Assembly (NCBI GenBank): GCA_025766275.1
Contig: JAFKAC010000072.1
Coordinates: 124,001-188,000, forward strand
Length of the DNA stretch: 64,000 bases
Source of the DNA: Lactarius indigo
Taxonomy: Eukaryota > Basidiomycota > Agaricomycetes > Russulales > Russulaceae
Reading direction: 5' to 3'
Below are positions 15,672 through 56,932 of the stretch, piece after piece. The number at the start of each line of letters is the position of its first letter. The stretch's first letter is position 1. The translations under genes and the position numbers were made by a program. The notes beneath the pieces are model-generated. The model searched no databases. It was given only the letters and a program-made list of their open reading frames with translations, and was not told where the DNA came from.

Positions 15672-17539
15672 TCATTGGCATGCTGTTGAGGGGGTGCTTC
15701 TTGAACCGCTCTGGTAGCAACTTCAGGTTCTTGCTGATGATAGTCGGTGTCAATGTACCGACTGGTTGATGCTTGAGGCTGGTAGCCTCCTTGTGGCTGT
15801 CTACAATCTTGGGCCATGTGTCCATCTTTTCTGCAATTATAACAGGTGACTGGCCTTTGATTATTATGTCCTCCTCCTCTTTGTAAAAATCCACCTCTCA
15901 GTCGATATGGGGGATGAGGGGTGAGTATATCCTCAGCCCCAGTAAGTTGCCCTTGAATTCGGTCTGCAGATGTGTCCATTGCATTGGGATCCCTTGTTAG
16001 GTTTCAGGGTTGCCAAGAACTTCTTGGGGGTCCCTGCCATGGTCATTGGCATTGCAATTGTTCTTGTTTTTGCAGTGCTCCTTTATTAAGCATGGCTTTA
16101 AGGTGCATATATTGTTGTTGATGAGTGGTGGCAGCTTCCTTCCACTCGTGATAGTTGCATGGAGAGTCAAGGGTGTACACCTTTGAGTAGAGATTGGTGG
16201 GTAGCCTGCTTGCGAATAGATCCAATGTCTGGGGATCATCAAGTTGGTACTGAGCGTGCTGTACCAATTGTTCGAATTGAGTGCAATACTCATCTAGATT
16301 TCCCCCAATCATCTTAAGCCCTTTCTTTAATTTGTATTGGGCTTGTTCTTGTTCTATCGTGTTTTGGAAGCGTTGCATGAAACTGTGCATCACTTCATTC
16401 CATAACCCTTCACTTGTACAGGGTATACCCACTTGTATTTGACTGTTAAGCCACATAGGCATTGCTAGTACCCATTCACTGATGTTGACTCCTTTGATAT
16501 AAGAGAGGAAAAGTAGGGCACGCCGGTATGGTGTGGCCATGATGCCTTTGTCAGCATTCATGCCCCAATAGATGTGCCATTGTGTGAGAAATGCTTCGAC
16601 TTTGGCCTGTTCTCTGTCAAATACTGTGGGTGCTTTACCAGCTAATTTGTTATTTTGGGGAGGGACAATAGGACCTGTACCTGGTAACCCTCCTCCTCCG
16701 GGATGTCCTCCTCCTGGTGGTCCTCCTGGGAATCCACCAGGGAACCCTCCAAATCCAGTTCCTCATGGTGGCAATCCTCCTCCTGGTAGATCACCAGGGG
16801 GTCTGCCTCCTCCACTAGGTGGATCAGGGATGTCAGGGCCTATGGCACGATGAATAGCTACATCATCGTTGGTCATTTGGTGTCCTGTATGTGGGTTGAT
16901 AGGCGCTAGTATGGCTTGTGCTTCTTGTGTGATGCATTGTTGCTCTTCTTGGGCCATCTGATCTATAGTATCAGAGGCTAATTGTATTTCTTCCTGCATG
17001 ATGGTGGCAGTGGCCATTGCAACTGCTGGGCTGTGAATATGAATTACTTCTGGTTCGGTTTGGTGGATGGTGAGTGATTCAGTTTGCTGTATGATACATT
17101 CACCAATAGCTCCTAGGCTCACATCTTCTGCAGGTGTGTTTCCTCTACTAGGAGATTGTTGGCTGTCAGAAGCCTCTTCTCCACTAACTCCTTCATCGGT
17201 ATGTTTTTGTGCTTGTCTGTCAATGGGACTGTAATCTGCATGGCTATTAAGTTCACATGCATTGATATTGCAGTTGTAGTTTCTTCCTGCCAGTCTCACA
17301 ATATCCCACTGGTGATCTATGGGGTTCCATGTAACCTTGGTCCAACAAAGGTGGTCAAAGTTGAACTCAATGGGTCGGAAATGGTTGGGGCCATTAAACT
17401 CTACAAAGTATCTGGTGTCTTCTCCTCGTTCTCTCCACTGGGCAGCTCCTAGGAATTGTGTAGGTATGTTGCGATCCCCCTGTCGTTTGAGGTGGTAGGG
17501 ATGGAAGGACATCCACTGTTCTCTGGTCGAATACACCAC
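15581..17539 (-). pseudogene. Gypsy-1a gag
   Basis: The frame opens at GTG GTG TAT TCG (17539), 8 nt after the self-priming site and without an AUG. An N-terminal conserved block (RYFVEFNGPNHFRPIEFNFD, WNPIDHQWDIV) precedes the first in-frame AUGs (MATATIMQ), a Gly/Pro-rich spacer, the retrotransposon capsid region (SYIKGVNISEWVL, NLDEYCTQFEQL) and one zinc knuckle (CYNCRKDGHMAQDC). Gag ends KEGFQDT at the frameshift site. The spacer is frame-disrupted near 16560-16760. Confidence 0.85.
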
Positions 17540-24121: not shown

Positions 24122-24699
24122 TGTTACGCCCTAGCAGGGGCGTGGGTTCTGAAGGTTTCTAATCACTCAAGTATCAAGCGAAGACTTCTGTTGTCTTATT
24201 GCTATGAAATACAAGTGGCAAAGGTGTGGCACAGGGTGCAGCACTACTCTGTAATATAGGACTCCTCGTCCGAAGTGTCTGACACTTCTCTACACTTGAT
24301 CTTGCTAGTGCACAGAGTATAACAGGTGTGACGCGTTGATATAGTTCAACTGCAAAGACTTCGGAGTGTCCTGGTTAGGGACTGAGGTAGGGGATGCACA
24401 AGAAGAGGGGAATAAGGCAAGGTCACACCAAAATACGGAGGCAAGGTTGCTAGATTGCAAACGAAGCCAAGTCTGGCTTCCTACGGTCTATGGTACAGGT
24501 TTATATAGGACAGGGTTCCAAACAACATGAACACAAGTCCACACAATATCAAAGAGACTAAACGGAGTAAGCAGAAGTTCGGATCAAAGAAACAGCGCCA
24601 CTAGTAACAGTAGCTCCTTTGGTAACAAGGTATGGTACAGAAGGGGAAAGCAGGGTGGAGACATACTGTGGCTTAGGTCCGAAGCGTCGGATCATAACA
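24122..24699 (-). repeat. Gypsy-4 3' LTR
   Basis: On the plus strand it runs TGTTACGCCCTAGC to CGGATCATAACA. I found no difference from the copy at 31491-32068. Confidence 0.95.
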
Positions 24700-24725: not shown

Positions 24726-27700
24726 CTAGAGTGCTTCGAAGTCCATCAGGTCATAGACATCGTTGTCTACATCGTTGGAGGGGGTGCTTTCGCGAGGGAG
24801 GGGGCAGCGATGTTGGCGAAGGAAGTTGAAGGGACCATGGGCCCCACACTTGCGACAATTTTCATACTTGGGACACTTGATTTCTTCGTGGCTGTTGCTG
24901 GTAAAACACTTGCCACACCACTGAGTGCGTTCTTCTGGGGCTGGCCAGAGGCACTGGTAGGGGAAGTGGTCAGTGCTAGAACACCTCCAGCAGAACTTCT
25001 GTTTTTGAGGGCAGGCGAAGGAGAGGTGGTCTTCAGACTGGCACCTGTAACAAAGTCGAATGGTGCCAGTCTCCTTCTTGTTGGCTCTGCGCTTGCGTCT
25101 CTTCTTCCTTTCTGCAGAGGGGCTAGGTCCTTCTGGTTCGTCGTGGAGTCGTGGCATGGAGTGGTAGTGAGGTGGAGCAGGGGCAGGAATGGGGTGGACT
25201 TCAAAGGGGTGAGTTTCTTCTTCCAAAGGAGGGGGGTGTAGTGTGAGCCATCGATCTGCAATCCGGACATAGGCCTTGTGTTCTTGCAGCCTTCTTCGGG
25301 TGCTGGTTAGCTGCATGTCCATATTGAGGAGGTGCCTTTTAAGGGGCTCCATCGTCTTGTACAGGCCTTCAATCTCCTTTCGGAGAGCCTTCTGGTTTCG
25401 CAAGAGTCGGCGAGTCCTGGAGATTTCTGCTGTGAGGCGGTCATCTTTCAGGTCTTCTAGGACTTCATCGACTTGTCTGGCTGTGGGGGAAGCTTCATCC
25501 AAGTTCTGCATTTGAGCTGGGGTGATGGGGGGAGCTGGGTTGTGGGGGTCGTCGTTTCTGGGGAGGAGGAAAAGGGGGAGGCCATAGTGAGGGAGGTTTT
25601 TGCCCATGGTGCCGATGACATCTTCTTTGTTTTCACTGATCTTGATCCATTTGGCATCTTTTCGGATGTACGAGGTTGGGTCAGCGTCGTCAGGGATGAG
25701 GAAGTGGACATAGCGGCTGCTCCAGGGGTCATTCAAGAAGAAGGGGTAGCCAGGGTCGTCGTCTTCTTCAGCAGCGATGTGCATTCTTTCATAGTTAATG
25801 GGGAGTGCGTCCATGATTGGGTCGTTGATTATTTCGCTGAGACGAGCCATGGTCACTCTAGGATCAGGGGGGGAGGTGGTAGGTCGGTGTATCTCGGGAG
25901 TAGGGGGAGCTGTGTGTCCAGGAGGGGGAACACGAAGGGCTATTCCTCCTCCTTCTGTTTCTATGACGCTGGGCATGGTGGGATCGATGGGTTGTGGTTC
26001 CTGGATGAGTGAAGGCAAGGAAGGGGGTCGTGCTGGGAAGGGAGAATAGCCAGAGGAGGGTGTGACAGAGGGTGTTTCGTCAAAGGAGCCTCTTTCCATG
26101 GCACGAGCAACAAGGCGTTCTACAGAGGAGGAGCGAGAGGGCATGGTGAGGAAGCTAGTGGGGAAGGTGGTTGCTGTTCGTACTGTTACTTCCTTTCGTT
26201 TTAACCATTGCTTTGCTCCTTCGCTTTTGGGGTTGCTTTCAAAGTGTTCCTGAATAAGTTCTGGGGCGTTGAGGTTCTTTTCTGGTTCCCAACTGTTGTG
26301 TGCATCGGAGTACCCCTTCCACTTGATTAGGAACTGTAACTGGTTCCTGTGGCGTCTTGTTTCTAGTATTCTCTCGACTTCCCACTCCTGTTCTCCATCT
26401 ACTAGATCTGGGGGTGGTTCCGTAAAGTTCTTTCCATGTATGGAGGTTTCTTTGTATGGCATCAGGAGTGACGCATGGAATACTGGGTGGATCCGCCACT
26501 GATGGGGAAGTTTCAGGGCATATGTGGTGGCGGAGATCTTCTTTGTGACCCTGAAGGGTCCATATCTTTTTGGGGCTAACTTGAAACTAGGGTGCGTTGT
26601 TTTCAAGTTCCTGGCATCCAGCCACACACTATCTCCTTCTGTGTGTTGTTCGAAGCGAGAGGATCCTTTGTAGAGTGACTGTGCATGGGTAATTGCTGCT
26701 TGGGCGGTCCTTCTGGCTTCCTGGATTCGCTCCAATCTCTCTTGTGTTCCTGGTACTGTGGTCGTTCTTTCTGGTTGGTGTACTCTTGGGATGTATCCAA
26801 GGATTAATTCGTAGGGTGCCTTTTTAGTGGTTGCACTTGGCCAGGAGTTGTGGGTGTACTGTGCCAGTGGTAGTAGCTCCATCCAATTGTCTTGTTGATG
26901 GTTTATGAACATTCGGAGGTACTGTTCTAACCACTGGTTTGTTCGCTCTGATTGTCCATCTGTTTGTGGGTGGTATGCTGTGCTGATGTTTTGTTCTATG
27001 TCAAGCACTCTGCACAGTTCTTTGATGAACTTCGCTGTGAATCTGGGGTCTCTGTCGGAGATGACCCTTATTGGTAGTCCATAGTGTGGTAGGACAGTTT
27101 TGGCATAGAGTTTTGCCACTCCTTCTGCGTCTATTGTTTCGCTGCATGGGATAAAGAAGGCTGCTTTGGAACAGTCATGATCCGTGATGGTGAGAATTGT
27201 GTCATTGTCTTCTGATTGGGGTAGCTTTGTGATAAAGTCTAGAGCGATGGTTTCAAAAGGGAGTGCTTCTGGGTTAGTCTTGATGGGGAATATCGGTGGT
27301 TTCGGGTTCCCAGGGAAGTTCTTGTTTGATTGGCATGTGGCACAGCCCTTTACATATGCGGATATGTCGTCTTTCATGTTTGGCCACCAATAGTCTTGTG
27401 ACACTAGCCACAAGGTCTTTGTTATTCCGGGGTGTCCAGCTGTTTTTGTATCGTGAAACAGGGAAATTACCCCCCTCTTTAGCGGTGTGTTGTCCACAAC
27501 CACCAGTTTGTCACCTCTCCACCAGTGTTTGCCTTGTTTTACTAAGTGGAAGGGGGCGGCCCACTCGTCCAGAGTGTCTTGGTGGTCTATTTGGTGTGCC
27601 ATGACCCGGTCATCTATCCTTATGGAGAGAGCAGAGTTTGCGAAGATGGTTGGGGTCAAGACCACTACATCAGTGTTATCCCCTGCTCCGGTGTCATGGT

Positions 27701-29615
27701 CAGGGCGTCTTGACAGGGCATCAGCATGGTTTTGGGGTCCGGGTTTGTGGTGAAGTTTGATGTGATAGTCTGCGAGTCTGGGGATGTAGCGCGCCACTCT
27801 CCTATTGATTTGTCGAGGGTGGCGATAATACTCTAGGTTTTTGTGGTCTGTAAACACTGTGATTTCGTGGGGGGATCCTAAAAGAAGGTGTCTCCAGTGT
27901 TCCAGTCCTCTGATTACTGCCAGGAGTTCCCTGTCATGGATGTCATAGTTGCGCTCCGCTTCAGAAAATGATTTGGAGAAGTATCCCACAGCTTGTGGTT
28001 TGTTTCGGCTGTCTCTTTGTGTTAAGATTGCCCCTGTGGCGAAAGCGGAGGCATCTACTTCTAGTTCGAAAGGTTTGTCCATATCTGGTTGGCATAAGAT
28101 GGGGTCTTTGCACACAAGCGTGATGAGAGTTTCTAAGGCTTCTGCTGCTTCCTTTGTCCATCTGAAGGGTCCTTCTGACGTCTTTATTGTGTCCGTGATG
28201 GGTCTTGCTAAGTGAGCGAAGTTGGGGATGAAGGGTCGCTGATAACTTAGTGTTCCCAACACGCTTCTTGCTTGTTTGACTGACTTGATGTCTCTTGGCC
28301 AGTCTTTTAGTCCTTCTACCTTCTTTGGGTCGATTTTGATTTGAGACCCATCGATGACAATGCCTAGGTAGTGGATCTTTCTTTGTTCGAACACACATTT
28401 CGATGCTTTAAGGAAATAGGATTCCTTTTCACAGATTTCCAAGAATTCGTGTACAATTTGTCTGTGGCGTTCTGTATCTTCTTCTGTGGCTATCAGGACA
28501 TCGTCCATGTACACAAATAGCTCTCTTGGGTATTTGTCCATAAGTGGTCGAAGTATTCTGCTCATGGTTCTTGCAAAGGTAGCTGGTGCATTTGTGAGGC
28601 CGAAGGTCATGACTCGAGGGATGAACAGCCCCCTTGGTGTCTTGAAGGCTGCCTTCCACTGGTCTTCCTCTTTTATGCGGATATTATGGTACCCCCATCT
28701 GATATCGAACTTTGAGAACAGTGTTTTCCCATTTAAGTTGGTCAGGATGTCGGAGATGAGAGGTAGTGGGTAAGTGTCTTTTATTGTCCAGGTGTTTAGG
28801 GGTCTGTAGTCCAGGATAGGGCGCAACCCTCCGTCTGTTTTCTTTCTGAAGAAGAAGGAGGAAGCGTAGGGGGAGCTTCCTTCATAGATGTATCCTTTTG
28901 CTATGTTTTCATCAAGATATGCCTTCAACTCCTTGTCTTCTTCTGGAGTCAAGGGGTAGATTTTGCAGTTAATCTTGTTGGGTGCATCTGGTCGCAATGT
29001 GATGGGATGGTCTTCTTCTCTTTCTGGGGGAAAGCGCTGTGCTTCTTCGTCTGAGAATACTTTGTTGTGGCGCTGGTATTCTTCTGGGATTGCAGTTTCT
29101 TTTACTGGGTCAAAGGTTGTTTTGGTTGCTGCCGCTTTCGCTTCTTGGTGTCGCTTTCTTCGGAAGCGGTGTCCTCCTGTCAGGATAGTTATGGCTTCTC
29201 CTTTCAGCTCTTGTTTCTTCCAGTCTATGTCTGGGTTTTCGTGTTCGAACCAGGGGTATCCAAAGATCATTCTGTCTTCCCCTAGGCTAGTTACGAAAAA
29301 CTGGAAAGGAGTTTCTTCTTCTCCTCTTTTTATCCATAGCTGGCATGTTTCTGTCATGGTGCCATCTTTGTTTAGCGATCCATCTACATTCCGGACCAAT
29401 CTGGGTGGTTTCAGAGGAGTGGTTCCTAGTCCAAGTTTTTGGATTAGGTTTCGGTCGATTAGGTTGTCTGTTGCACCGCTGTCTAGCAGCACATTTATGC
29501 GAGCTTCTTTGTAGTAAAGGCGAACGAGGACTTTGATTGTCATAGCACTATCGCGAACACTATACATTGAATTGGCCTCCCTGTCAGCTCTCACAGGTCG
29601 GCATCGCAAAAATCC
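24726..29615 (-). CDS. pol: Gypsy-4 Pol: protease, RT, RNase H, integrase, chromodomain, C-terminal zinc knuckles
   Basis: Pol overlaps the gag end in the -1 frame and has no early AUG, so it is likely made as Gag-Pol by frameshifting at GGATTTT (AAAATCC at 29609-29615 on plus). Counting from 29609: protease DSGATDN (about 43), RT with YMDD (367-370), RNase H (EVDASAFATGAIL, FTDHKNLEY), integrase HHCC (GHPGITK, CATC; about 720-760), DDE core ending GQSERTNQW (about 886) and chromodomain (FLIKWKGYSDAHNSW; about 1093). After that come about 500 further residues: a conserved module (PHYGLPLFL), a coiled-coil-like basic stretch, and four Cys/His knuckles (1520-1602), beginning CYRCQSEDHLSFAC and CWRCSSTDHFPYQC. 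No stop interrupts it. Confidence 0.94.
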   Translation of the reverse strand, partial: GFLRCRPVRADREANSMYSVRDSAMTIKVLVRLYYKEARINVLLDSGATDNLIDRNLIQKLGLGTTPLKPPRLVRNVDGSLNKDGTMTETCQLWIKRGEEETPFQFFVTSLGEDRMIFGYPWFEHENPDIDWKKQELKGEAITILTGGHRFRRKRHQEAKAAATKTTFDPVKETAIPEEYQRHNKVFSDEEAQRFPPEREEDHPITLRPDAPNKINCKIYPLTPEEDKELKAYLDENIAKGYIYEGSSPYASSFFFRKKTDGGLRPILDYRPLNTWTIKDTYPLPLISDILTNLNGKTLFSKFDIRWGYHNIRIKEEDQWKAAFKTPRGLFIPRVMTFGLTNAPATFARTMSRILRPLMDKYPRELFVYMDDVLIATEEDTERHRQIVHEFLEICEKESYFLKASKCVFEQRKIHYLGIVIDGSQIKIDPKKVEGLKDWPRDIKSVKQARSVLGTLSYQRPFIPNFAHLARPITDTIKTSEGPFRWTKEAAEALETLITLVCKDPILCQPDMDKPFELEVDASAFATGAILTQRDSRNKPQAVGYFSKSFSEAERNYDIHDRELLAVIRGLEHWRHLLLGSPHEITVFTDHKNLEYYRHPRQINRRVARYIPRLADYHIKLHHKPGPQNHADALSRRPDHDTGAGDNTDVVVLTPTIFANSALSIRIDDRVMAHQIDHQDTLDEWAAPFHLVKQGKHWWRGDKLVVVDNTPLKRGVISLFHDTKTAGHPGITKTLWLVSQDYWWPNMKDDISAYVKGCATCQSNKNFPGNPKPPIFPIKTNPEALPFETIALDFITKLPQSEDNDTILTITDHDCSKAAFFIPCSETIDAEGVAKLYAKTVLPHYGLPIRVISDRDPRFTAKFIKELCRVLDIEQNISTAYHPQTDGQSERTNQWLEQYLRMFINHQQDNWMELLPLAQYTHNSWPSATTKKAPYELILGYIPRVHQPERTTTVPGTQERLERIQEARRTAQAAITHAQSLYKGSSRFEQHTEGDSVWLDARNLKTTHPSFKLAPKRYGPFRVTKKISATTYALKLPHQWRIHPVFHASLLMPYKETSIHGKNFTEPPPDLVDGEQEWEVERILETRRHRNQLQFLIKWKGYSDAHNSWEPEKNLNAPELIQEHFESNPKSEGAKQWLKRKEVTVRTATTFPTSFLTMPSRSSSVERLVARAMERGSFDETPSVTPSSGYSPFPARPPSLPSLIQEPQPIDPTMPSVIETEGGGIALRVPPPGHTAPPTPEIHRPTTSPPDPRVTMARLSEIINDPIMDALPINYERMHIAAEEDDDPGYPFFLNDPWSSRYVHFLIPDDADPTSYIRKDAKWIKISENKEDVIGTMGKNLPHYGLPLFLLPRNDDPHNPAPPITPAQMQNLDEASPTARQVDEVLEDLKDDRLTAEISRTRRLLRNQKALRKEIEGLYKTMEPLKRHLLNMDMQLTSTRRRLQEHKAYVRIADRWLTLHPPPLEEETHPFEVHPIPAPAPPHYHSMPRLHDEPEGPSPSAERKKRRKRRANKKETGTIRLCYRCQSEDHLSFACPQKQKFCWRCSSTDHFPYQCLWPAPEERTQWCGKCFTSNSHEEIKCPKYENCRKCGAHGPFNFLRQHRCPLPRESTPSNDVDNDVYDLMDFEAL

Positions 29616-31282
29616 TGGTCTAAGGCATAGTAGCGTCTCTTTTCATCCTCAGTCATGCCTTGGACGAGTGCATGGGCTTGTCGGACTTTATCTTCGGTTG
29701 TGGTAGCGGCCACTGATGAGGTGCTTGCTTCTGGGGTGTATGGGGGCGCAGTGTCCGCTTCTTGGGTGTCTGTGGCTCTGGCTTTGGTTTGGTTGGTGGT
29801 GTTTTGTCGTTGACAGTTCCTAGCCATGTGTCCTTGTTGCCTGCATTTGAAGCAGCGTCCTTCTTTCATGAGGGCTTTCTTCTCTTCTTCAGTAAGCTTC
29901 TTAAAGGGGGTGGAGGTGGTGGCATCTACATCCATTGCATTTGGGTCTCGCTTTGGTCGTCCTTGATGGACATTCTGAGTTGGCCCTGGGTTTCTGTTCC
30001 CTGGTCTGGCTTTTAGCAGCTTCCAGCGTTGGTGTTCTGCTCTGGCAGCGGTTTGCCACTCGTCCATGGTGTTTGGGATGGTGGTTCGCATAAGGCAAGC
30101 ACGATACAGTCCTGTGGGTAGTCCTCTTTTAAAGAATTCCACCGTTCCAGGGGCATCTCTTGCCCATCCTGCTATTCCTGCAAGGTGTTCGAAGTCGAGG
30201 ATGTAACTGTCCAATGCTCCACCCTGCATCGTCAAACTGATGAGCTTTTGATAGGCTCTTTCTTTGTTTAGAGTGTCGGTCCAGTCTCTGTCGAAGGTGT
30301 CGAGGAAACCGTCCCAAAGGTCTTTGCTGTTTTTGGTGAGGGCTTTGGTGGGGTCTGCTAGTGCCGCTTCCATGTCATCTTCAGTTTGGTTGACCCATAG
30401 CTGTACACCGGGTCCTTTGAACATTGTAAGGGCGAATAGTACTCGTGCATAAGGTTCTTTGATGAGTTCATTTTCACTGTTTAACTTGATGTATCGTAGT
30501 AGTTCTCTTTTGAACTGACCACTCTCTGTTCTATCTCCGGTGAACGGAGTAGGGGGTGCTCCTTTGAGTCCTCCTGAGCTCGTTGTTGGTGTTCCTCCTG
30601 TTCCGGTGCTTGAGCCGGTACCTGTGCCAGTGCCTGTGGCATTGATAGCTGACATGATAAGTGTTGGCTGTGGTGTGATGGGGATCTGGGGTGGTTCGAC
30701 TGGGGAGGGCAATCTGATTGGTGGTAGTGTGGCTGGGAATCCTTCTTCCGCTGGGGATGGTTCTATCCAGATAGGGATAGTGGGGCTGGCTTGTGACGAA
30801 GCTTGTGTGGGTACTGTGATGTCTAGGCGGTGTTCTGAGGAGTGGGATGGTTCTGAGTGTGATTCTGCTTCGTCTGAGCTGGGTTCTTCTTCTGATGAGT
30901 CTTGTTGTAGTCCGTATGTTCCCCTAGTGTTTCTTGGTGCTGAGGATGATTGTTGTGTGGGCGTTTCTGGGTTCTGTTCGTCTTCTTCGTTCCACCAGCC
31001 TAGTCCTTCAGCAAATCTGTGTGGTGTGATGTTTATGGCTCTGGTATGGTATGTGTTCTGAAAGTATCGGAGGATGTACCAGTTGTTGTTGATAAATTCC
31101 ACTGGTCTGAGTTCGCCTTTGATGAGGCACTTGTAACAAGGTGGTCTGCCTGATGTTGTGGCCCAACGAGCTCCTCTTCCTAGTTGACTGCTTTTAACGT
31201 GGTGTGGGAGGTCGTCTTGTGTTCTGGTTGTGACTGGGGTCCAATCGTTGTCTGATTCAAAGGTGACACTGATGCTAGCCAC
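29591..31282 (-). CDS. gag: Gypsy-4 Gag, with candidate GUG start
   Basis: The frame is open for 563 codons from GTG GCT AGC ATC (31280-31282) to TGA at 29591. The first ATG in any frame after the predicted transcription start is at 30653-30655, in this frame (MSAINATGTGTGSS), so about 209 codons lie upstream of it. That upstream part holds a conserved block (GELRPVEF, NNWYILRYF). Downstream come a Gly/Thr-rich spacer, the capsid region (ALDSYILDFEHLAGIAGWA) and one zinc knuckle CFKCRQQGHMARNC (about residues 476-489). Either Gag starts at GUG (A at -3, G at +4), or only the AUG form is made. The start is undecided. Confidence 0.85.
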   Translation of the reverse strand: MASISVTFESDNDWTPVTTRTQDDLPHHVKSSQLGRGARWATTSGRPPCYKCLIKGELRPVEFINNNWYILRYFQNTYHTRAINITPHRFAEGLGWWNEEDEQNPETPTQQSSSAPRNTRGTYGLQQDSSEEEPSSDEAESHSEPSHSSEHRLDITVPTQASSQASPTIPIWIEPSPAEEGFPATLPPIRLPSPVEPPQIPITPQPTLIMSAINATGTGTGTGSSTGTGGTPTTSSGGLKGAPPTPFTGDRTESGQFKRELLRYIKLNSENELIKEPYARVLFALTMFKGPGVQLWVNQTEDDMEAALADPTKALTKNSKDLWDGFLDTFDRDWTDTLNKERAYQKLISLTMQGGALDSYILDFEHLAGIAGWARDAPGTVEFFKRGLPTGLYRACLMRTTIPNTMDEWQTAARAEHQRWKLLKARPGNRNPGPTQNVHQGRPKRDPNAMDVDATTSTPFKKLTEEEKKALMKEGRCFKCRQQGHMARNCQRQNTTNQTKARATDTQEADTAPPYTPEASTSSVAATTTEDKVRQAHALVQGMTEDEKRRYYALDQDFCDADL

Positions 31283-31478
31283 GATTGTGGTCTGTCTTGG
31301 GTGCTGATTTGTGTAAGGGGATGGCTGAAGCAGCCTCTTGTGTCAGGGAGGATCCGTCGCCCGGCTGTGCCGTCGTTTCTGGGTTCTTTGGAGTGTCTGG
31401 TTGTTGGCTGATGCGTCCTCTTGGATCGTCGCCCACTCTGCTGTGTGGCAGTAGTGTCTTGGGTGTGTTGGGAGTTGT

Positions 31479-31489
31479 AGACTTGGCTT
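31479..31489 (-). promoter_or_regulatory. Gypsy-4 self-priming primer-binding site
   Basis: On the minus strand AAGCCAAGTCT begins one base after the 5' LTR. Its complement AGACTTGGCTT lies within the LTR (31833-31843 as AAGCCAAGTCT on plus), 33 nt downstream of the TATATA (31871-31876). That is where transcription should start. Confidence 0.7.
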
Positions 31490-31490
31490 A

Positions 31491-32068
31491 TGTTACGCCC
31501 TAGCAGGGGCGTGGGTTCTGAAGGTTTCTAATCACTCAAGTATCAAGCGAAGACTTCTGTTGTCTTATTGCTATGAAATACAAGTGGCAAAGGTGTGGCA
31601 CAGGGTGCAGCACTACTCTGTAATATAGGACTCCTCGTCCGAAGTGTCTGACACTTCTCTACACTTGATCTTGCTAGTGCACAGAGTATAACAGGTGTGA
31701 CGCGTTGATATAGTTCAACTGCAAAGACTTCGGAGTGTCCTGGTTAGGGACTGAGGTAGGGGATGCACAAGAAGAGGGGAATAAGGCAAGGTCACACCAA
31801 AATACGGAGGCAAGGTTGCTAGATTGCAAACGAAGCCAAGTCTGGCTTCCTACGGTCTATGGTACAGGTTTATATAGGACAGGGTTCCAAACAACATGAA
31901 CACAAGTCCACACAATATCAAAGAGACTAAACGGAGTAAGCAGAAGTTCGGATCAAAGAAACAGCGCCACTAGTAACAGTAGCTCCTTTGGTAACAAGGT
32001 ATGGTACAGAAGGGGAAAGCAGGGTGGAGACATACTGTGGCTTAGGTCCGAAGCGTCGGATCATAACA
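31491..32068 (-). repeat. Gypsy-4 5' LTR with promoter
   Basis: On the minus strand the TATA box TATATAAACC (from 31876) lies 33 nt before AGACTTGGCTT. That motif sits inside a short palindrome GAAGCCAGACTTGGCTTC. From that point to 30656 the minus strand contains no ATG. Confidence 0.93.
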
Positions 32069-35000
32069 TTTGGCATGCCATCTGGCATCCACCTGACACA
32101 GTTTGACGGCACCGGTTGGAACGAATGGTCTGGGACCATTGAAGCCATCCTCACGCTGCATGAGGCTGAGGATGTGTTTCTCCTGGACACGCCCCCATCT
32201 GGTATTACCACCGATGAGTGGGACTCCATCCAGCGTCGTTCCAAGGCGTACCTCCGCCTTTACCTCAAACCGGACGTCTACTCACTTGTGGCAGACAACA
32301 CTGCCTACCCCATGTTCAAACATAAATGGGCCAAGCTTCAGGATGTGTATGGCGGTGCTTCGGGCAGCACCACCATCTTCAATTTGTGGATCCAGATAAC
32401 TCAAGCCCGCCTCAACGACTCAGCACCCATGGCCGCACAGCTGGCCAAGCTCAATGAGCTTAGGGTTGCCCTTTCCAACGCACAGATGGGTGTCTCTGAC
32501 GTCCAATTCTGTCTCATTCTCCTCCACGCGCTGCCGCCCTCTTATGAGGTGTTGGCCTCTACCATCCTTGCCAGTGGGGCCCCCTCCACACTCAAGCACG
32601 CTGAAATAATTGCGCGCATAGTGTCGGAAGAAGCTCGCCGCACCGGGCCCTCTGGCTCCTCCCTCAACAAGGTGGCCCCTGTCAAGTCGACAGGCAAGAA
32701 GGGCAAGAAGGACCACTCTGGTCTGACTTGCCACTATTGCAATAAAAAGGGCCACATCAAGCCTGATTGCAGGAAGAGGAAGAAGGATGAGGCTGACGCA
32801 AAGGAGAAGGAGAAAGCAGGCAACAAGGCCGCCAATAGTCATGTCCTAGTACCTACCACCGCCTCCATTACGGAGATCGTAGAGCCCAAGATAGATTGGG
32901 CCTCTGAATCAATTGGTGTTGCCTTGTATGCTGCCTCGCGTGTGCGTTGGATGATGGACAGTGGTGCTACACACCACATCACTCCACATCGGTCTGACTT
33001 CAAGGACTACACCCCAACTAAAGGCACTGTACGCCTAGGGGATAAGTCCACTATAGACCAAGTAGGTGTCGGGTCCGTCGTCTTTACTACGAGCCAGGGT
33101 ATCTCTATCACCCTCAGCAATGTGCTACACCTACCACAGGTGAAGACGCGCTTCTTGTCGACACGCGCCCTAGCACAAAAGGGTGCTGAGATTGCCTTTG
33201 ACAGTGGCTCATTCAAAATATCTGTCAACCAAAAGTGTGTGGCCAAAGGCTACCTTGAGGACAACCTTTACTGGTTGGACGCAGCCAGCGTCGGCCTCAA
33301 TGCCCACACAAAATCAAGTGCTGCCACACTTGATATCTGGCATCAACGCATGGGACACATCTCCTCTGCGGCGCTAAAAGCGCATGGTCCCTCTGCCACT
33401 ACTGGCATGGACATAGACAGCTCTACCACGGCCCACACAGTCTGCCGTGGGTGCGAGATGGGCAAGTCCACTCGCCAACCCTTTTCTGCGTCCTCCAATA
33501 AGAGGACAACTCGTCAATTTGAGATCGTACACAGTGACCTCGCCGGTCCTATGCAGACTCAGTCCTTGCAAGGCTCGACATACACAGCCACCTTCATAGA
33601 CGACCACACTAAGTTCACTGTGGTCCACTTTCTTAAGTCGAAGGACCAGTTTGCTAAGTCGCTGCAAATGTATTTGGCCTGGGGAGAAACCCAGTCTGGC
33701 CATAAGTTGCGCGCTCTGCACTCTGACCGCGGTGGCGAGTACATGTCAAGTGTCACGCAGGACATTCTCAAGCAGAAAGGGATAGAGCATCACCTCACGA
33801 TGCCGGGCTCACCACAGTCTAACGGAAAAGCCAAGCGGTTCAACCGCACCATTATGGATAAGGCAATGTCCATGCTTCACACAGCTGGCATGTCTAAAGG
33901 CTTCTGGGAGCATGCAGTGTGCGCAGCTGTGCACATCTATAACCGCTCTCCAGTCCGTGGGCTCAAGTGGCGCACTCCTTATGAGCTCTGGCACTCTGGC
34001 AAAGTGCCCGATGTCTCACATCTTCGTGTCTTCGGATGCAAGGGGTACATGCACGTACCCGCTGATAAGCGTCGCAAATTAGATGCGAAGGCCATTGAGG
34101 TCACGCTTATTGGGTTTGAGCCCGAATCTAAGGGCTATAAGCTCTGGGACCGCTCAACCCGCTCCGTTCGAGTGTCCAGGGATGTGACATTCGACGAGAG
34201 TAGCTTCCCGTCCCTCCAGGGTGTTGAGACACACCCCACACCTTCACCACCAGTCGTGCCTAGCACAACAGTGACTGCCATGCCTCACCCGCCGGCGTTA
34301 CCACCAATGCGAGCCCCCTCCCCTGCACACTCCAGTAGTAGTGAGGAGGAGGATGTTGAAAAGCTCCTAGACCCCCCACAAGTCCAACCACGCCCCACCA
34401 CTCCACCACCTGCTCTGCCACCTCTGCCCACCACACCTAAACGTGAGCAAGCCACTCCAACCTCTCCCCCGCCATGTCCTAGTGCAACGTGCATTATGCG
34501 CCATGTCCCTCCACCCTCACCAGAAATGCCTGGGGGATTTGAGGATCGTGCACAGCGTAGTCAGCTGTTGTGCGAGATGGACAATGCACCAAGGTGCACT
34601 GCTCGTGTCCCCGTGCCTAATCCGCGTTACTTCAATGCGGACAATGCGGCATGGCGCGGCAGGCGTCTGGGGTATGCAGAGTTATTGGCTGCTGCCTTTG
34701 TGGGCCGAGACCCTGCAACCTATGCAGAGGCCATGCGGTCTGCAGCTGCAGATGAGTGGACTAAGGCGTGTCAGTATGAAATGGACGCCCTAGCTAAGAA
34801 TGGGACTTGGGAGTTAGTGGATCTCCCGCCTAATCGCAAGGCAGTAAAATCCAAATGGGTCTTTAAGCTCAAAGCGGATGGCCGCTACAGAGCTCGCTTG
34901 GTGGCTAAGGGATTCACGCAAATCCCTGGCATAGATTTTGATGAAACCTTCTCTCCCGTCGCACGATTTGAGTCGCTACGTTTACTTCTGGCGTTGGCCG

Positions 35001-36272
35001 CGCTGGAGGACTGGCACATCCATCAGATGGATGTTAAGTCTGCTTTTCTCAATGGCGTGCTTGACAAGGAGATATACATGGAGCAGCCACAAGGTTTCAC
35101 TGTCACTGGCTCTGAGACGAAGGTGTGTCGCCTAGTCAAGGCGATCTATGGTCTCAAACAGGCCTCCCGCGCATGGAACTTGCAATTCCATGGAGTGCTC
35201 ACTGCACTCGGCTTTAAGCGGACGTTTGCTGATGCTGGCATATATGTGATGCCTCAACGGGAGGGGTATGATCCACTCTTCATTATTGTCTACGTTGACG
35301 ACATCACTATACTGGGTCCCTCGTTGAGTGGAATCAAGCGTCTTAAGTCAGACTTGTCTGAACGCTATGAGATGACAGATCTCGGGGAGATAGAGTCTTA
35401 TCTTGGTATGCGCATCGTGCGTGACCGCTCCCTTAGACGCATCGAAATAGATCAGTCTGGCTACATCAAGGATGTCCTTGAACGCTTTGGCATGTCTGAT
35501 GCCACACCACACAACACACCCTTGCCTGCTGGTGCTGACGAGCACCTAGTTAAATATACGTCGCAGGCAACTGCCTCAGATATCTCTCACTACCAATCTC
35601 TTATTGGGAGTCTGCTTTATGTGCAGATTGGCACTAGGCCAGATATCTCCTTCGCTGTGTCACGTTTGGCGCAGTACGCAGCGAATCCCTCACCACAACA
35701 TCTGCAACTTGCGCAGTATGTCCTGTCCTACCTAGTGGGAACTATGGATATGCGTATTGTCTATGATGGCGCCAATGGCGATGGCCTTCATGGCTACACT
35801 GATTCCAGTCTGGCTGACCAGACTGATGACCGCCACTCCACCTCTGGTTATGTGTTCCTACTAGCTAACGGTGCAATAAGCTGGTCTTCGCGCAAGCAAA
35901 AGACTGTTGCCCAAAACACAACGGAAGCGGAATACATGGCCATGACCGACGCGGCTAACCAGGCTGCGTGGTATCAGAGCTTCCTCACGGAACTCGGGTA
36001 CGAGGTCGACGACCCCATCCCACTTCATGGTGACAATAAGGGTGCCATTGACTTGGCCTTGAACCCTGTCACTGGGAGACGGTCTAAGCACATTGCCATA
36101 CGGCATCATGTTATTAGGGAGTACATCGAAAAGGGGACCATCACCCTCATTAGAACTCCTACTGTGGATATGGTTGCGGACGGCTTCACAAAGTCACTAC
36201 CACGTGTCCTGCTGCAGAAGCACAATGATGACATGGGACTTGTGTGTACTTAGATTGTAGATCACGGGGAGA

Positions 36273-37576: not shown

Positions 37577-39538
37577 GTGGCATATTCGACCAGAGAACAG
37601 TGGACGTCTTTTTGTCCTTATCACCTTGAATGACAAGGAGATTGCAATGTACCAACAAGATTCCTAGGAGCAGCTCAGTGGAGAGAACAAGGAGAAGACA
37701 CTGGGTATTTTGTAGAGTTCAATGGTCCTAACTGTTTCCAACCTGTTGAGTTCAATTTTGACCATCTTTGTTGGACTGAGGTTACTTGGAACCCCATAGA
37801 CCATCGCTGGGACATAGTGTGGCCAGCAGGAAGAAACTACAATTGCAACATTGACGCACATGAACTTAACAGTCACGCAGACTATGGTACCATTGATGGA
37901 CAAGCACAAGAACACACTGACAAAGGAATTAGCAGAGAAGAGGCTTCAGACAGCCAACCATCACCCAGTAGAGGAAACACACCTGCAGAAGACGCCAGCC
38001 TAGGAGCTATTGGCAAACATATCATACAGCGAACTGAGTCGCTCACCATTCATCAAACCGAACCAGAAGTAATTCACATTCACAGCCCAGCAGTCGCGAT
38101 GGCCACTGCCACCATTACGCACAAAGAAATACAACTTGCCTCTGATACAATTGACCAGATGGCTCAAGAAGAACAAAACTGCATTGTGCAAGAAGCACGT
38201 GCTATACTAGCACCCATCAATCCCTACACAGGTCACAGAATGACAGATGACGATGTGGCCATTCATCATGCCATTGGACCCAATGTACTTGATCCACCCA
38301 GCGGAGGAGGCGGACCTCCTGGCGATCTACCAGGAGGAGGACCACCACCTCAGGGAGGAGGATTCAGAGGATTCCCTGGAGGGTACCCAGGAGGACCCTT
38401 AGAAGGAGGACACCCTGGAGGAGGACTACCAGGTGCAGGTCCCATTGTCCCTCCCCAAAATAACAAATTAGCTGGTGAAGCACCCACAGTATTTGATGGA
38501 GAACGCACCAAAGTTGAGGCGTTTCTCACACAATGGCATGTCTATTGGGGCATGAATGCTGATGAAGGCATTATGGCCACACCATATTGACATGCCTTAC
38601 TCTTTCTATCCTACATCAAGGGCGTCAACATTAGTGAATGGGTATTGGCCATGCTCACTTGGCTTAATGGCCAAATACAAGCAGGAATACCTCGAACCAG
38701 CGAAGGACTATGGAACGAAGTTACGTGCAGCTTCATGCAATGCTTCCAAAATATGATGGAACAAGAGCAAGTGCAATACGAATTAAAGAAAGGGGTCAGG
38801 ATGATTGGGGGAAATCTAGATGAGTATTGCACCCAATTCAAACAGTTAATACGTCATGCTCAGTACAGACTTGACGACCCACAAACGCTTGATCTATTTG
38901 CAAGCAGATTACCAAAAGACCTATATGAAAAGGTCTACACCCTTGACAACCCTCACAACTACCATGAGTGGAAAGAAGCAGCCACTACTCGTCAACAACA
39001 GTACCTTCACCTCAAAGCAATGATAAACAAGGGAGCCCCACAAGGACCAGGACAAGGGCGACAACACCAACAACACCAGTGGCAAGGACCACCAAGAAGT
39101 TCATGGCAACCAAGAAATCTCCCAAGAGACCCAAACACGATGGACACATCAGCCAATCGAATTTGAGGATGACTTACTGGGGCTGAAGACATACTCACCC
39201 CTTGTCCCCCTTACCGACCATGAGGTGGATTTCTACAAAGAGGAGGAGGACGTAATAACCAAAGGCCAGTCACTTGTTATAACTGTGGAAAGGATGGACA
39301 CATGGCCCAAGATTGTAGACAACCACGAGGAAGCTATCAGTCTTAAGCCTCAACTAGTTGGTACATCAATACCAATTATCACCAACAAGAACCCGAAGTC
39401 GCTACCAGGGCAGTCCAAGAAGCACCCCCTCAACAGCACGCCAATGATTGGCTCAATGGAGTAGCAGGAGAATTGGACAATGTAAAAGACATTATCCTCC
39501 AACAATTATGGAAAAAGGAGGGTTTTCAGGACACCTGA
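37577..39538 (+). pseudogene. Gypsy-1b gag
   Basis: The frame opens at GTG GCA TAT (37577) with no in-frame AUG until MATATITHKE (38099). N-terminal block: YFVEFNGPNCFQPVEFNFDH, WNPIDHRWDIV. A Gly/Pro spacer (DPPSGGGGPPGDLPGGG), the capsid region (NLDEYCTQFKQLIRHA) and a zinc-knuckle segment broken by a frameshift (about 39200-39310) follow. Gag ends at 39536-39538, just after the GGGTTTT shift site (39520-39526). Stops fit CGA to TGA: LE(R)QGD near 37633, PY(R)HA at 38588, I(R)G(R)LTG near 39166-39174. Confidence 0.85.
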
Positions 39539-46055: not shown

Positions 46056-48047
46056 GTGGCGACTATCAACACCTGTGACCAGTGGACGAGTTTTCGTCCA
46101 TACGATCTTGAATGAAGAGGAGATCGCAATGTACCAACCTGATTCTTAGGAGCAGCCCGTTGGAGGGACCGAGGAGATGAAACCAGATATTTTGTGGAAT
46201 TCAACGGACCTACAAGGTTCAGACCTGTTGAGTTCAATTTCGATCATCTGTGCTGGGTGGAAATTATGTGGAACCCCATAGACCATCACTGGGACGTTGT
46301 CAGACCAGCAGGAAGACAATATCAGTGTGACATCGACGCACGCGAACTCAATTCACGAGCAGATTGGGGGCCAATCGACGGCCAAATACAAGAACACTCC
46401 ACCAGAGAAGCAGTAAGTGAGGAAACCGAAGAAGAAGAACAGAGCGAGGAGAACCAACCAGCAAGCGTCGGACCAATCGAACAATATACCATCCAATGAG
46501 CTGAGTCTCTACATATATCAGAATCACTGGAAGTCATCCACGTACGATCACCTGCAGCAGAAATGGCTACAACTACAATGACAGCAGAAGAAATTATGGC
46601 AGTAAGAAATCAAGTGGCGCGAGAAGCAGCTGAAGCAATCAGACAAGAGTCCCAGCAACATCTCCTACCCATCCACCCCGATACAGGGCACCGCATGACT
46701 GCAGATGACGCAGCAATCTTTTGGGCTATAGGACCCAACCAAGGAGACCCTCCATCAGGAGACGGACGACAACCAGCACTATCACTTGACCCCCCACCAG
46801 GATGGGGAGGACCCCCCAGAGGGGACTTCCCTCAATGACCGGGAGGAGGAGGAAACCTGCCAGACCTTCCACAGAACCTGCCGGAAGGAGGACCCCCAGG
46901 TGGAGGCGGAGGTGGTGGCCCACCAGGCGGAGGGGGAGCAGGACATGGACATGAGAAACTAACAGGTGAACCCCCCACAATTTTCGATGGAGATCGCACT
47001 AAGGTGGACTTGTTCCTTACGCATTGGCACGTATATTGGGGGATGAACCTCGACACCCCCATTATGCGCAACGACTACCGACGAAGTCTCCTGTTTCTCT
47101 CCTACATCAAAGGAGTGTCGGTCAGCGAATGGGTACTATCGTACCTCAAATGGCTTAACCGGCAAATACAACGAGGGATAGACCAACATATGTGAGACCT
47201 GTGGAACGCGGTAGCAGAGGGATTTAACCAAAGGTTTGTCAATACCCTTGAACGAGAGCAAGCTCAAGCGCTTCTAAGGAAGGGACTCAAAATGGTCGAT
47301 GGGGATATTGACAAGTATGTCAACGAATTCGAAGAAGCCGCCAGAAAAGTGGGGTATTGCCTCAATGATCCCCAAACTATCGATCTATTTACCAAGGGGC
47401 TACCCAAGAAGCTGTATGAGAAGACCTACAATCTGGACAAACCAGAAACATTTGACGAGTGGAAGCAAGCAATGCTCCGTCGCCCACGCGACTACATCCA
47501 TATCCAAGCAAGGGTGGATGAATACAAAGACAATAAGCCAAAGAAAATGGGTAACGCCGGGTGGATGGTTCCCCAGAACCTTGCCAATCCATGGGCAATG
47601 GACACCTCTGCTGACCGAGTAAAGGCGAGATTAGCAGGGTCAGAAGAAATCGATTACGGAAAACCACCATATACGAACCAACCCCCCTTCCCGCCGAGAG
47701 GAGGGCCAGGAGTCAGAGGTCGAGGGAGAGGAGGGTCGCGACGAGACCTAAGGACAGTGCTATGCTATAACTGTAATGTGCCAGGCCATCTCTCACGAAA
47801 TTGCCCCCATCCCAGACAACCGCGACAGTGGCAGCCACAGAACCCCGGACCTTCCAATGTCTGGACAACAGAAACCGATTATTACACGCAAGAACTGCCA
47901 CCAGCCCAAATACAGGTTGCCTCAACCAGTAAAATGGCAGAAGAGCGTGCCAAAGAGTGGCTTACAGGGGTCGCAAACGCACCTGACGAAGTGAAGGACC
48001 TGATACTGCAGGATTTATGGGGAAAAGAGGGTTTTCGGAGCGCCTGA
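46056..48047 (+). pseudogene. Gypsy-2 gag
   Basis: The frame opens at GTG GCG ACT ATC (46056-46058, A at -3, G at +4), 8 nt past the primer-binding site. The first in-frame AUG is MATTTMTAEE at 46563. N-terminal block: RYFVEFNGPTRFRPVEFNFD, WNPIDHHWDVV. A Gly/Pro spacer, the capsid region (SYIKGVSVSEWVLSYL, DIDKYVNEFEEAA) and a zinc knuckle CYNCNVPGHLSRNC follow. Gag ends GFRSA at 48045-48047, just after GGGTTTT (48029-48035). Stops at 46113, 46140, 46497, 46837 and 47194 all read TGA where sister copies or context indicate CGA. Confidence 0.87.
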
Positions 48048-55351: not shown

Positions 55352-55362
55352 AAGTCGAGTCT
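55352..55362 (+). promoter_or_regulatory. Gypsy-5 self-priming primer-binding site
   Basis: AAGTCGAGTCT begins two bases after the LTR and is exactly complementary to 55110-55120. The sequence differs from the Gypsy-1/-2 site, and the complementary partner differs with it. Confidence 0.7.
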
Positions 55363-55369
55363 CTCCACC

Positions 55370-56932
55370 CTGGCTTCAAAACTAGGAAGCAGGAGCCGTT
55401 CCCAGTTCAAACCAGAATTCATCACCAGAAGAACAGAAGACGATCTCTCCGACAACATCAAGGGAGTAGCCATCTGGAAAACCTACGACGAAACTGAAGG
55501 ATATTACGTTTGGAGCAAAGAAGACAATGGATATATTCCTATTGAATACATAGAAGACAAACGACTTTGGGTAGTCATCGCACAATCATCCAAAGACCAC
55601 AAGTGGTTCTCTGTCAAACCAGTACCACTAGAATTCGGACTTGGTCCATATAGAAACAACCCAGTTGGCATAGTTGTCGACTCAGATACAGAAGAACCTG
55701 CTCAGGATTCGGATCAACATCAATCCCCTGTTGCATCAGTGGAAGCTACGTCAGGTGTCCCCTCTTTAGCCCCACAAGAACCCATAGACTCAGGTGCTCG
55801 CACACCAACAAACTCAAGCATTAGAATGACAAGCACAGCCACACAAATCAACACCTCAATCACCCACACCCCTAGTGGAGGTGGCAGTAGCAAAGGAGGA
55901 GGTGGAGGTGGAGGTGGAGGTGGAGGTGGAGGCGGTGGAGGAATCCCTGCTGGAAGAGCCCCACCTTTAGCCCCCCCTCCTGCCGGAGATAAATTAACAG
56001 GCCTACCACCAAAAGAATTCACTGGAGACCGAGCCCACAGCAAGAAATTCCTAAAAGAGTTCACCTTCTACCGGGCCCTCAATGGATCAATCGAGCAAAT
56101 GAGAAACCCCTATCTCAGATGCATTGTCTTCCTCTCCCTAATATGAGGAGACTTGGTTGATGACTGGGTTATGGAACAAAGTGACTGGCTTACTGATGAA
56201 CTTGCTGGAGGACGGGCTACAACAGAAGAAGACCTGTGGATCACCATCCTAGATCGCTTCCAAGCTGCTTATACAGACGTTGCAGAGAAGCAGAAGGCAC
56301 AGAAGGCACTCCAAGCGGTCAAAATGGAGAATGGAGACCTTGACACCTATATTGCTCAGTTCGCTGCCCTTGCAAAGAAGGCAGGATATGGTGCAGATGA
56401 AGAAGGAACCCTGGATATTTTCTCACGGGGTCTACCTGAAAAGCTGGTCAGGAACATCATACAGTTCGACCACCCAGATGACTGGAAAGAATGGACCCAA
56501 TCAGCCAGAAAGCACCATCAAGACTTCATCAATCTCCAAAATCGCTTTGGAATCAAAAAGGAAACTAAAGCCGGATTCACAAAAGGGCAATGGAACAATG
56601 CCTTTAAAGTCAAACCACGTGACCCAAATGCGATGGACATAGGAAGGACTCAAAGAGGAGCTGCAGGAAGAGCAGCCCTCACTGAAACTGAAAAACAGAA
56701 GCTCCAAGCAGAAGGGTGCTGTTTCCGTTGCAAGAAACAGGGGCACATATCGCGAAATTGCCCTGACAAACCAGCCAAACTTGCAGAAGCATCAACTACA
56801 CCCTCTGCACCATCTACCACAAAAACCAAAGAGGAACTAGCAAATGAGATGTGGGGAACTCTGATGGCACAGAGTGAGGAAGTGCGAGCACTGCTCGTAG
56901 AGAAAGCCTTTGCTGAGAAGGATTTTTCGTAG
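55370..56932 (+). pseudogene. Gypsy-5 gag
   Basis: The frame is open from CTG GCT TCA (55370-55372, A at -3, G at +4) with no in-frame AUG until MTSTATQ (55826). The N-terminal part holds GYYVWSKEDNGYIPIEYIED and KWFSVKPVPLEFG, a counterpart of the N-terminal block in the other families. A run of 17 glycines, the capsid region (TGLPPKEFTGDRAHSKKFL, DLDTYIAQFAALAKKAGYG) and a zinc knuckle CFRCKKQGHISRNC follow. One stop at 56144 reads TGA in LI(R)GDLVDDW. Gag ends at TAG 56930-56932 after GGATTTT (56920-56926). Confidence 0.87.

Follow-up and report, generated by a model that had tools for sequence, protein, structure and literature searches.

The stretch of Lactarius indigo DNA analysed here (positions 124,001 to 188,000 of contig JAFKAC010000072.1, assembly GCA_025766275.1; the window means all 64,000 nucleotides) carries on its minus strand a long terminal repeat (LTR) retrotransposon, Gypsy-4, whose Gag protein appears to be started at a GTG as well as at the first AUG of the RNA (Table 1). 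From the domain order of its Pol (RVT_1, 5e-32; RT_RNaseH, 9.5e-32; Integrase_H2C2, 1.6e-21; SH3_Tf2-1, 8.7e-18; Chromo, 1.1e-15; protease and rve models match below their cut-offs), its LTRs and target-site duplication, and the pairing of its primer-binding site (PBS), we classify Gypsy-4 as a recent, self-primed Ty3/gypsy chromovirus. The LTRs are identical and CCAAA flanks the element on both sides as a target-site duplication, and the insertion is therefore judged to be recent. Tf1-type self-priming uses the extreme 5' terminus of the RNA; since the PBS is complementary to 31843-31833, position 31843 is supported as the transcription start site (TSS) and seems well placed. Perfect complementarity over 11 nt between the PBS and the RNA 5' end recurs in the related families (Gypsy-4, C, 11/12 E copies and 10/10 B copies; the family labels Gypsy-4, B, C, D and E are those of this analysis). 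In a Pfam scan of short Gag, zf-CCHC (20.2 bits) and Retrotrans_gag (15.6 bits) each scored below the Pfam cut-off.

Table 1. Features of Gypsy-4 and start sites of related copies, in window coordinates
Feature	Position	Strand	Remarks
Gypsy-4 5' LTR	31491..32068	-	578 bp, 0 differences from the 3' LTR
Gypsy-4 3' LTR	24122..24699	-	578 bp, matches the 5' LTR exactly
TATA-box-like CCTATATAAA	31869..31880	-	TATAWA 31-33 nt 5' of the inferred TSS at 31843
Inferred RNA 5' end / self-primer	31833..31843	-	exact 11-nt reverse complement of the PBS
PBS AAGCCAAGTCT, self-priming kind	31479..31489	-	exact reverse complement of 31843-31833
AUG-free leader	31283..31843	-	561 nt, 0 ATG vs 5.55 expected; frame varies between copies
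GTG, putative long-Gag start	31280..31282	-	ATC-GTG-G, A at -3, G at +4
N-terminal Gag extension	30656..31282	-	209 codons, without Met
First AUG of the RNA, putative short-Gag start	30653..30655	-	Gag frame; ATG in 66/66 distinct copy sequences
Short Gag	29591..30655	-	linker, capsid-like region, one CCHC knuckle
pol frame	24726..29642	-	protease, RT (reverse transcriptase), RNase H, integrase, chromodomain, long C-terminal tail; -1 relative to gag
Decayed family B copy, GTG	17537..17539	-	AAT-GTG-G
Second decayed family B copy, GTG	37577..37579	+	AAT-GTG-G
Decayed copy D, GTG	46056..46058	+	ATT-GTG-G; PBS same as B
Family C, CTG	55370..55372	+	ACC-CTG-G, 7 nt after PBS 55352-55362; inferred TSS 55110; in-frame AUG 55826

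The first-pass annotation had reported that between 31843 and 30656 no ATG occurs in any frame, where about ten would be expected, and had proposed that selection keeps AUGs out of this stretch for the benefit of scanning ribosomes. The absence is borne out, with 0 ATG in 1188 nt against 12.2 expected from independent bases and 11.2 from a first-order Markov model; 2000 dinucleotide shuffles gave 11.2 +/- 2.7, and none of them (0/2000) was free of ATG. Depletion extends over R-U5 (0 against 3.9 expected), the remaining leader (0 against 1.1) and the extension (0 against 5.0 by dinucleotide shuffle). When the extension protein and its codon usage are kept by synonymous permutation, 3.46 ATGs are expected and none is observed (P 0.005). 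The neighbouring regions behave otherwise: U3 is not depleted (3 against 3.1), gag 3' of the AUG at 30655 has 26 ATGs against 15 (dinucleotide shuffle) or 20 (synonymous permutation), and pol from 29560 to 26000 has 57 against 50. The depletion of ATG in Gypsy-4 starts at the inferred TSS and stops at the in-frame AUG. As also claimed, this first ATG is in the Gag frame and the frame is open for some 209 codons upstream of it; the opening begins at 31342 and comprises 583 codons in all. The favourable context described for the GTG is likewise present, and GTG or CTG occupies the same place in other families. The AUG-free layout is also found outside Gypsy-4, in families B and E, each with a self-primed PBS, a GUG with A at -3 and G at +4, a Met-free extension and, after it, an AUG in frame.

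The genome (90.3 Mb in 291 contigs), whose 5 hydrophobin matches above the cut-off suggest a filamentous dikaryan fungus, was searched for further copies with Gypsy-4 protein; the best 150 of 235 candidates were scored and 66 distinct copy sequences fetched. At 31282, 62/66 of these have GTG and 4/66 ATG. For the 59 other copies with >90% coverage (11 loci with partial leaders were omitted from the first count and entered the codon tallies wherever the site was covered), the mean number of ATGs between the TSS and 30655 was 0.71 at >=97% identity (n=17), 0.67 at 96-97% (n=27), 1.8 at 95-96% (n=6), 4.5 at 90-95% (n=4) and 10.4 below 90% (n=5). The oldest copies are thus near the chance number, and the depletion fades with age. 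Insertions and deletions relative to the window copy change in character at the GTG: before it their length is a multiple of three in 1/19 events, and after it in 7/10 (extension 4/6, early gag 3/4; Fisher p 5e-4). Two of the frame-breaking events (31320 and 31299) fall within the part of the open frame that immediately precedes the GTG. Among variants common to at least four young copies, nonsynonymous to synonymous counts (N:S) are 9:16 in the extension and 27:18 in the leader read in the same frame, with a mutational opportunity of about 2.3-2.6. These comparisons support a coding signature that turns on at the Gypsy-4 GTG. The CpG of the start codon shows C-to-T in 16 copies and G-to-A in 4, where the totals over 39 CpGs are 239 and 308; since the copies share ancestry, this asymmetry is suggestive only.

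We extended the comparison with a census using a start-site pattern in which the first base of the codon was free and exact flanks were required, which favours well-kept copies. It matched 553 places (B 185, Gypsy-4 155, E 213), and the first 100 of each family, 300 of 553, were tallied by eye. Among these 300 listed places there were 278 GTG, 22 ATG, 0 CTG and 0 TTG, divided as 94 GTG and 6 ATG in B, 96 and 4 in Gypsy-4, and 88 and 12 in E; reversed-pattern controls gave 0 matches. At the corresponding place Gypsy-4, B, D and E have GTG and C has CTG. Among the nine sequences examined (Gypsy-4, E1-3, B1-4 and C), codon 0 is the sole near-cognate codon common to all, and the nine extensions, of 134-209 codons, contain 0 Met, compared with 1.5-3.4% Met after the AUG.

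Family B yielded 1738 candidates, of which the best 150 were scored and ten copies picked for a long open frame. All ten read CATC-GTG-GCG at the start place, and 9/10 have 0 ATG over the 395-405 nt from the inferred TSS. In the four of the ten for which the extension was fetched, the RNA is ATG-free until an in-frame ATG 783-786 nt from the inferred TSS, in the context GTYGCRATGGC. Across the 522-nt extension the synonymous control expects 2.8-4.9 ATGs and none is observed (P 0.0055 or lower in each of the four); after the AUG the counts are unremarkable (9-12 against 9.7-12.5 expected). An AUG-free stretch ending at an in-frame AUG has the limit that leaky scanning predicts. A different source for the two proteins would be separate transcripts, with a second promoter just 5' of 30655 giving short Gag and the full-length RNA translated from the GUG only. 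Our TSS is itself an assignment, for which only a self-primer and a TATA-like start were sought, which leaves some room for this. Such an arrangement would make the removal of AUGs from all frames of the extension needless, yet this is present in both Gypsy-4 and B, and the depletion begins at the LTR start site. We therefore regard separate transcripts as improbable.

Family E was followed through 12 copies (L083-L094), with extensions read through L083, L086 and L094 together with L095-L097. Here the self-primed PBS (5' partner found in 11/12) is followed by a spacer of 5-10 nt in which all three phases occur among the 12 copies, and then by the start site, GTG GCY CTC ACC AGY with small variations (GTG in 11, ATG in 1); copy L086 has a stop three codons 5' of its GTG. 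Counting from the inferred TSS, E1 and E2 stay ATG-free for 654 and 643 nt; E3 has two ATGs in its leader and one in its extension. The first in-frame ATG comes 402, 402 and 411 nt after the GTG, before a Gly-rich stretch. Of the 11 copies with a located TSS, 8 show no ATG in the 323-348 nt fetched from there on. A subgroup of E has a longer spacer between PBS and start, and among the matches listed shows CGTGG, TGTGG and CATGG forms of one CpG; many of the ATG-start E cases listed sit in this subgroup, which also has C-to-T at the same CpG. Some copies of the long-spacer subgroup may use AUG.

In B, C and E pairing is possible between the RNA 5' end and the PBS, which lies just 5' of the start, and could impede scanning. 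This would suit a mechanism in which internal ribosome entry or shunting brings ribosomes at or near the GTG without scanning from the cap. Depletion of AUG from the leader is, however, what scanning predicts, and four pieces folded around the GTG and CTG showed no structure better than shuffles. We consider this route slightly less probable even than a second promoter.

Splicing would offer a conventional start, if an intron junction created an AUG from which Gag began, and short introns are usual in fungal genes. The first-pass annotation had named an intron as a threat to its reading, and the outcome differs between families. In Gypsy-4 and B there is no upstream AUG to join. A junction-made A/TG at the start codon is possible in one of the nine sequences examined (E2), and E copies of the CACAGTGG type, which could form it, account for 38/100 listed E sites. 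An in-frame AG/TG occurs otherwise only at codon +60 of Gypsy-4, beyond the conserved RTQDDL motif. Taken across the families, a spliced start is very unlikely.

The extension behaves as protein. Pairwise ratios of nonsynonymous to synonymous divergence (dN/dS) for the extension are 0.12, 0.12 and 0.03 among E1-3 and 0.03-0.07 in six B pairs, at synonymous divergences (dS) of 0.37-1.5. The remaining fetched gag of E and B is similar (0.03-0.14), and the +1 and +2 frames of the extension give 1.5-5.8 (seven equal-length pairs). The extension is under protein-level constraint in B and E, as judged from these substitution patterns. A lack of such constraint, which the first-pass annotation had said would undo its case, is contradicted here by dN/dS in B and E, and in Gypsy-4 itself by the N:S counts only. 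It also bears on the notion that the extension is a dead relic, its scarcity of AUG an effect of composition, with Gag made from the AUG at 30655 only. The strand from 31843 to 30656 is indeed poor in T and G (213 and 215 of 1188). Composition-keeping shuffles and synonymous permutation still reject chance in Gypsy-4 and B, and the dN/dS values (0.03-0.12) are those of a maintained protein; the relic can hardly be credited.

Kinship among the extensions was assessed by identity and by hhalign comparison of profiles of the first 110 residues. In the cross-matches listed, identity between C and E extensions is 42-48%. The E/C and B profiles align from residue 1 (probability 96.9, E 1.8e-10, columns 1-83 with 1-84). 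Two proteins from outside this genome, P0001 (46%) and P0002 (31%), matched the Gypsy-4 extension in a protein search, and a profile of these three aligns with E/C at a one-residue offset (probability 80, E 1.4e-5, columns 17-74 with 16-70). P0002 compared with the B1 extension scored better than all shuffles (0/500 as good). The relationship of Gypsy-4 to B, as read from these alignments, passes via E/C and P0002. Comparison of whole-alignment profiles matched only the capsid-like part (probability 98.7). Both P0001 and P0002 begin MAS where Gypsy-4 reads VAS, which favours this as the start position, and each has a Met near the linker; between the first Met and this one P0001 has 0 Met and P0002 has 1. 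A search with the E extension gave 0 matches at E 0.001.

The B extension matched four Lactarius proteins (P0003-P0006; Russulales). In P0004 and P0005 the start position reads IVAF and TVAF, with unrelated sequence upstream, as if exons had been borrowed to gain an ATG. P0003 and P0004 keep EMATETI with the internal Met. All four annotated proteins are chimeric-looking gene models upstream of the start position. The same arrangement is probably present in Lactarius relatives. Structure prediction gives a beta-rich fold for the first ~90 residues of the Gypsy-4 extension (predicted local distance difference test, pLDDT, 67-93 for the block) and low confidence for the rest, and a comparison of the extension fold returned no significant match. 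We expect the extension to act in particle assembly, targeting or RNA handling.

Together, the shared site, the coding switch and the AUG-free stretch are best fitted by the non-AUG start with leaky scanning that the first-pass annotation proposed. On one capped RNA, ribosomes would scan from 31843 through the AUG-free leader; a minority would initiate at the GUG at 31282, aided by A at -3 and G at +4, to make long Gag with its 209-residue extension, and the remainder would traverse the extension, free of AUG in all frames, and begin short Gag at the AUG at 30655. Long Gag would be the scarcer product. Near-cognates such as CUG and GUG support appreciable initiation (for example 2-30%), and many ribosomes scan on to the next AUG (PMC3542737). 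We think it highly probable that an inefficient GUG and leaky scanning on one RNA yield the two proteins, and that the families share this. The comparisons support an arrangement common to several related families of this genome (GUG in Gypsy-4, B, D and E; CUG in C). A single G-to-A change would turn the GUG into AUG, and in Gypsy-4, B and part of E that base lies in a CpG. A bolder version is that an entire lineage of such self-primed elements, found in this fungus and probably in Lactarius, gave up AUG for long Gag, keeping a single intrinsically weak GUG (once CUG) and excluding AUG from ~640-1190 nt, even where these are coding, with codon identity alone setting the ratio of long to short Gag and with an undescribed N-terminal domain; here the balance tips only modestly in favour.

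Several observations weigh against the dual start. ATG stands at the start codon in 22/300 listed places, and harm from an AUG there is not demonstrated; these copies may be decayed or functional. A count of ATGs across the copies, as the first-pass annotation had suggested, was divided: among the 44 other young Gypsy-4 copies (>=96% identity, >90% coverage), 23 have none and 21 have at least one between the TSS and 30655. In copies of at least 95.5% identity 31/35 ATGs are at ACG sites and 2/35 at the start codon, a pattern that suggests post-insertion decay through CpG transitions. ATG-making variants shared by at least four young Gypsy-4 copies are not significantly rarer than expected (leader 2/45, extension 0/25; ~4-9% expected) and are not decisive. 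Leader ATGs occur elsewhere too: in 1/10 B leaders, in the decayed window copies of B and D (several each), in C (one out of frame at +157) and in E (3/11 copies with a located TSS, counting the start codon as well as the leader). E alone is weak, with synonymous-permutation P values of 0.38, 0.25 and 0.06, and all three E copies have a poor-context out-of-frame ATG 8 nt 5' of the in-frame AUG, which could tune initiation of short Gag. No stable hairpin was found 3' of the GTG (z 0.37). Gypsy-4 and B extensions show no direct match (probability 1.1; 86/500 shuffles as good). The initial M of P0001 and P0002 may have come from gene-finding software that translated a GTG as Met.

The rest of the element has features of its own. 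The gag and pol frames overlap by ~50 nt (29642-29591, minus strand), with pol in the -1 frame, and GGATTTTTG lies within the overlap, which makes a -1 frameshift there likely. Beyond the chromodomain the Pol tail continues for ~500 codons (26200-24726, minus strand), with Cys/His knuckle-like motifs near its end and a zf-CCHC match at E 0.011, below the cut-off. On the other strand a frame of 1437 codons (31940-36253, plus strand), which from its motifs we take to be copia-like, starts inside the Gypsy-4 5' LTR, as if the insertion had interrupted it.

Tf1/sushi-type chromoviruses resemble these elements in that the PBS can pair with the start of the RNA (inferred here) and that Pol carries SH3_Tf2-1 and a chromodomain. 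Tf1 Gag has an ordinary AUG start in one long frame, whereas gag and pol are in separate frames here. Similar in mechanism is glycoGag of murine leukaemia virus, in which an in-frame near-cognate upstream of the Gag AUG, together with leaky scanning, lets a single RNA encode both an extended and a plain Gag, the extension bearing a signal peptide (PMC3542737). That is a mammalian retrovirus with a CUG and an 88-residue extension (PMC5120145); here most families have GUG and an AUG-free extension of 134-209 codons. PEG10, a mammalian gene of Ty3/gypsy origin (PMC5009743), has a CUG in frame upstream of an AUG, and mutation of each codon proved both to be used; however, it is a domesticated gene with a 34-residue extension and an AUG not conserved in orthologues (PMC2800197), whereas the present elements are mobile and multi-copy and conserve the internal AUG. 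Neurospora CPC1 offers a fungal case, with a conserved in-frame extension lacking an AUG start, found also in selected Basidiomycota, but it is a cellular regulator with two upstream open reading frames (uORFs) and several near-cognate codons (PMC5487733); here one site is shared and well-kept copies lack an AUG uORF. GUG itself starts the C' protein of human parainfluenza virus type 1 (HPIV1; PMC3542737), and near-cognates serve dual localisation in Cryptococcus (PMC7049704). In PMC2864245, the Tcn1 survey of gypsy elements in fungi, the main text contains none of the terms 'start codon', 'AUG' and 'ATG'. The literature matches listed included no Gag from a fungus or a chromovirus that starts at a codon other than AUG, a weak absence since preprints and most subscription papers were outside the scope.

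If the dual start is correct, the Gag start of hundreds of elements in this genome (exact start-site matches number 155-213 per family in three families) is overlooked by AUG-based gene finders, and the extension would define an undescribed N-terminal Gag domain. It would also be, as far as the literature searched shows, the first standing non-AUG initiation across an LTR retrotransposon group. The numerous copies are a naturally mutated series with which start-codon choice and the avoidance of AUG can be studied in a fungus.

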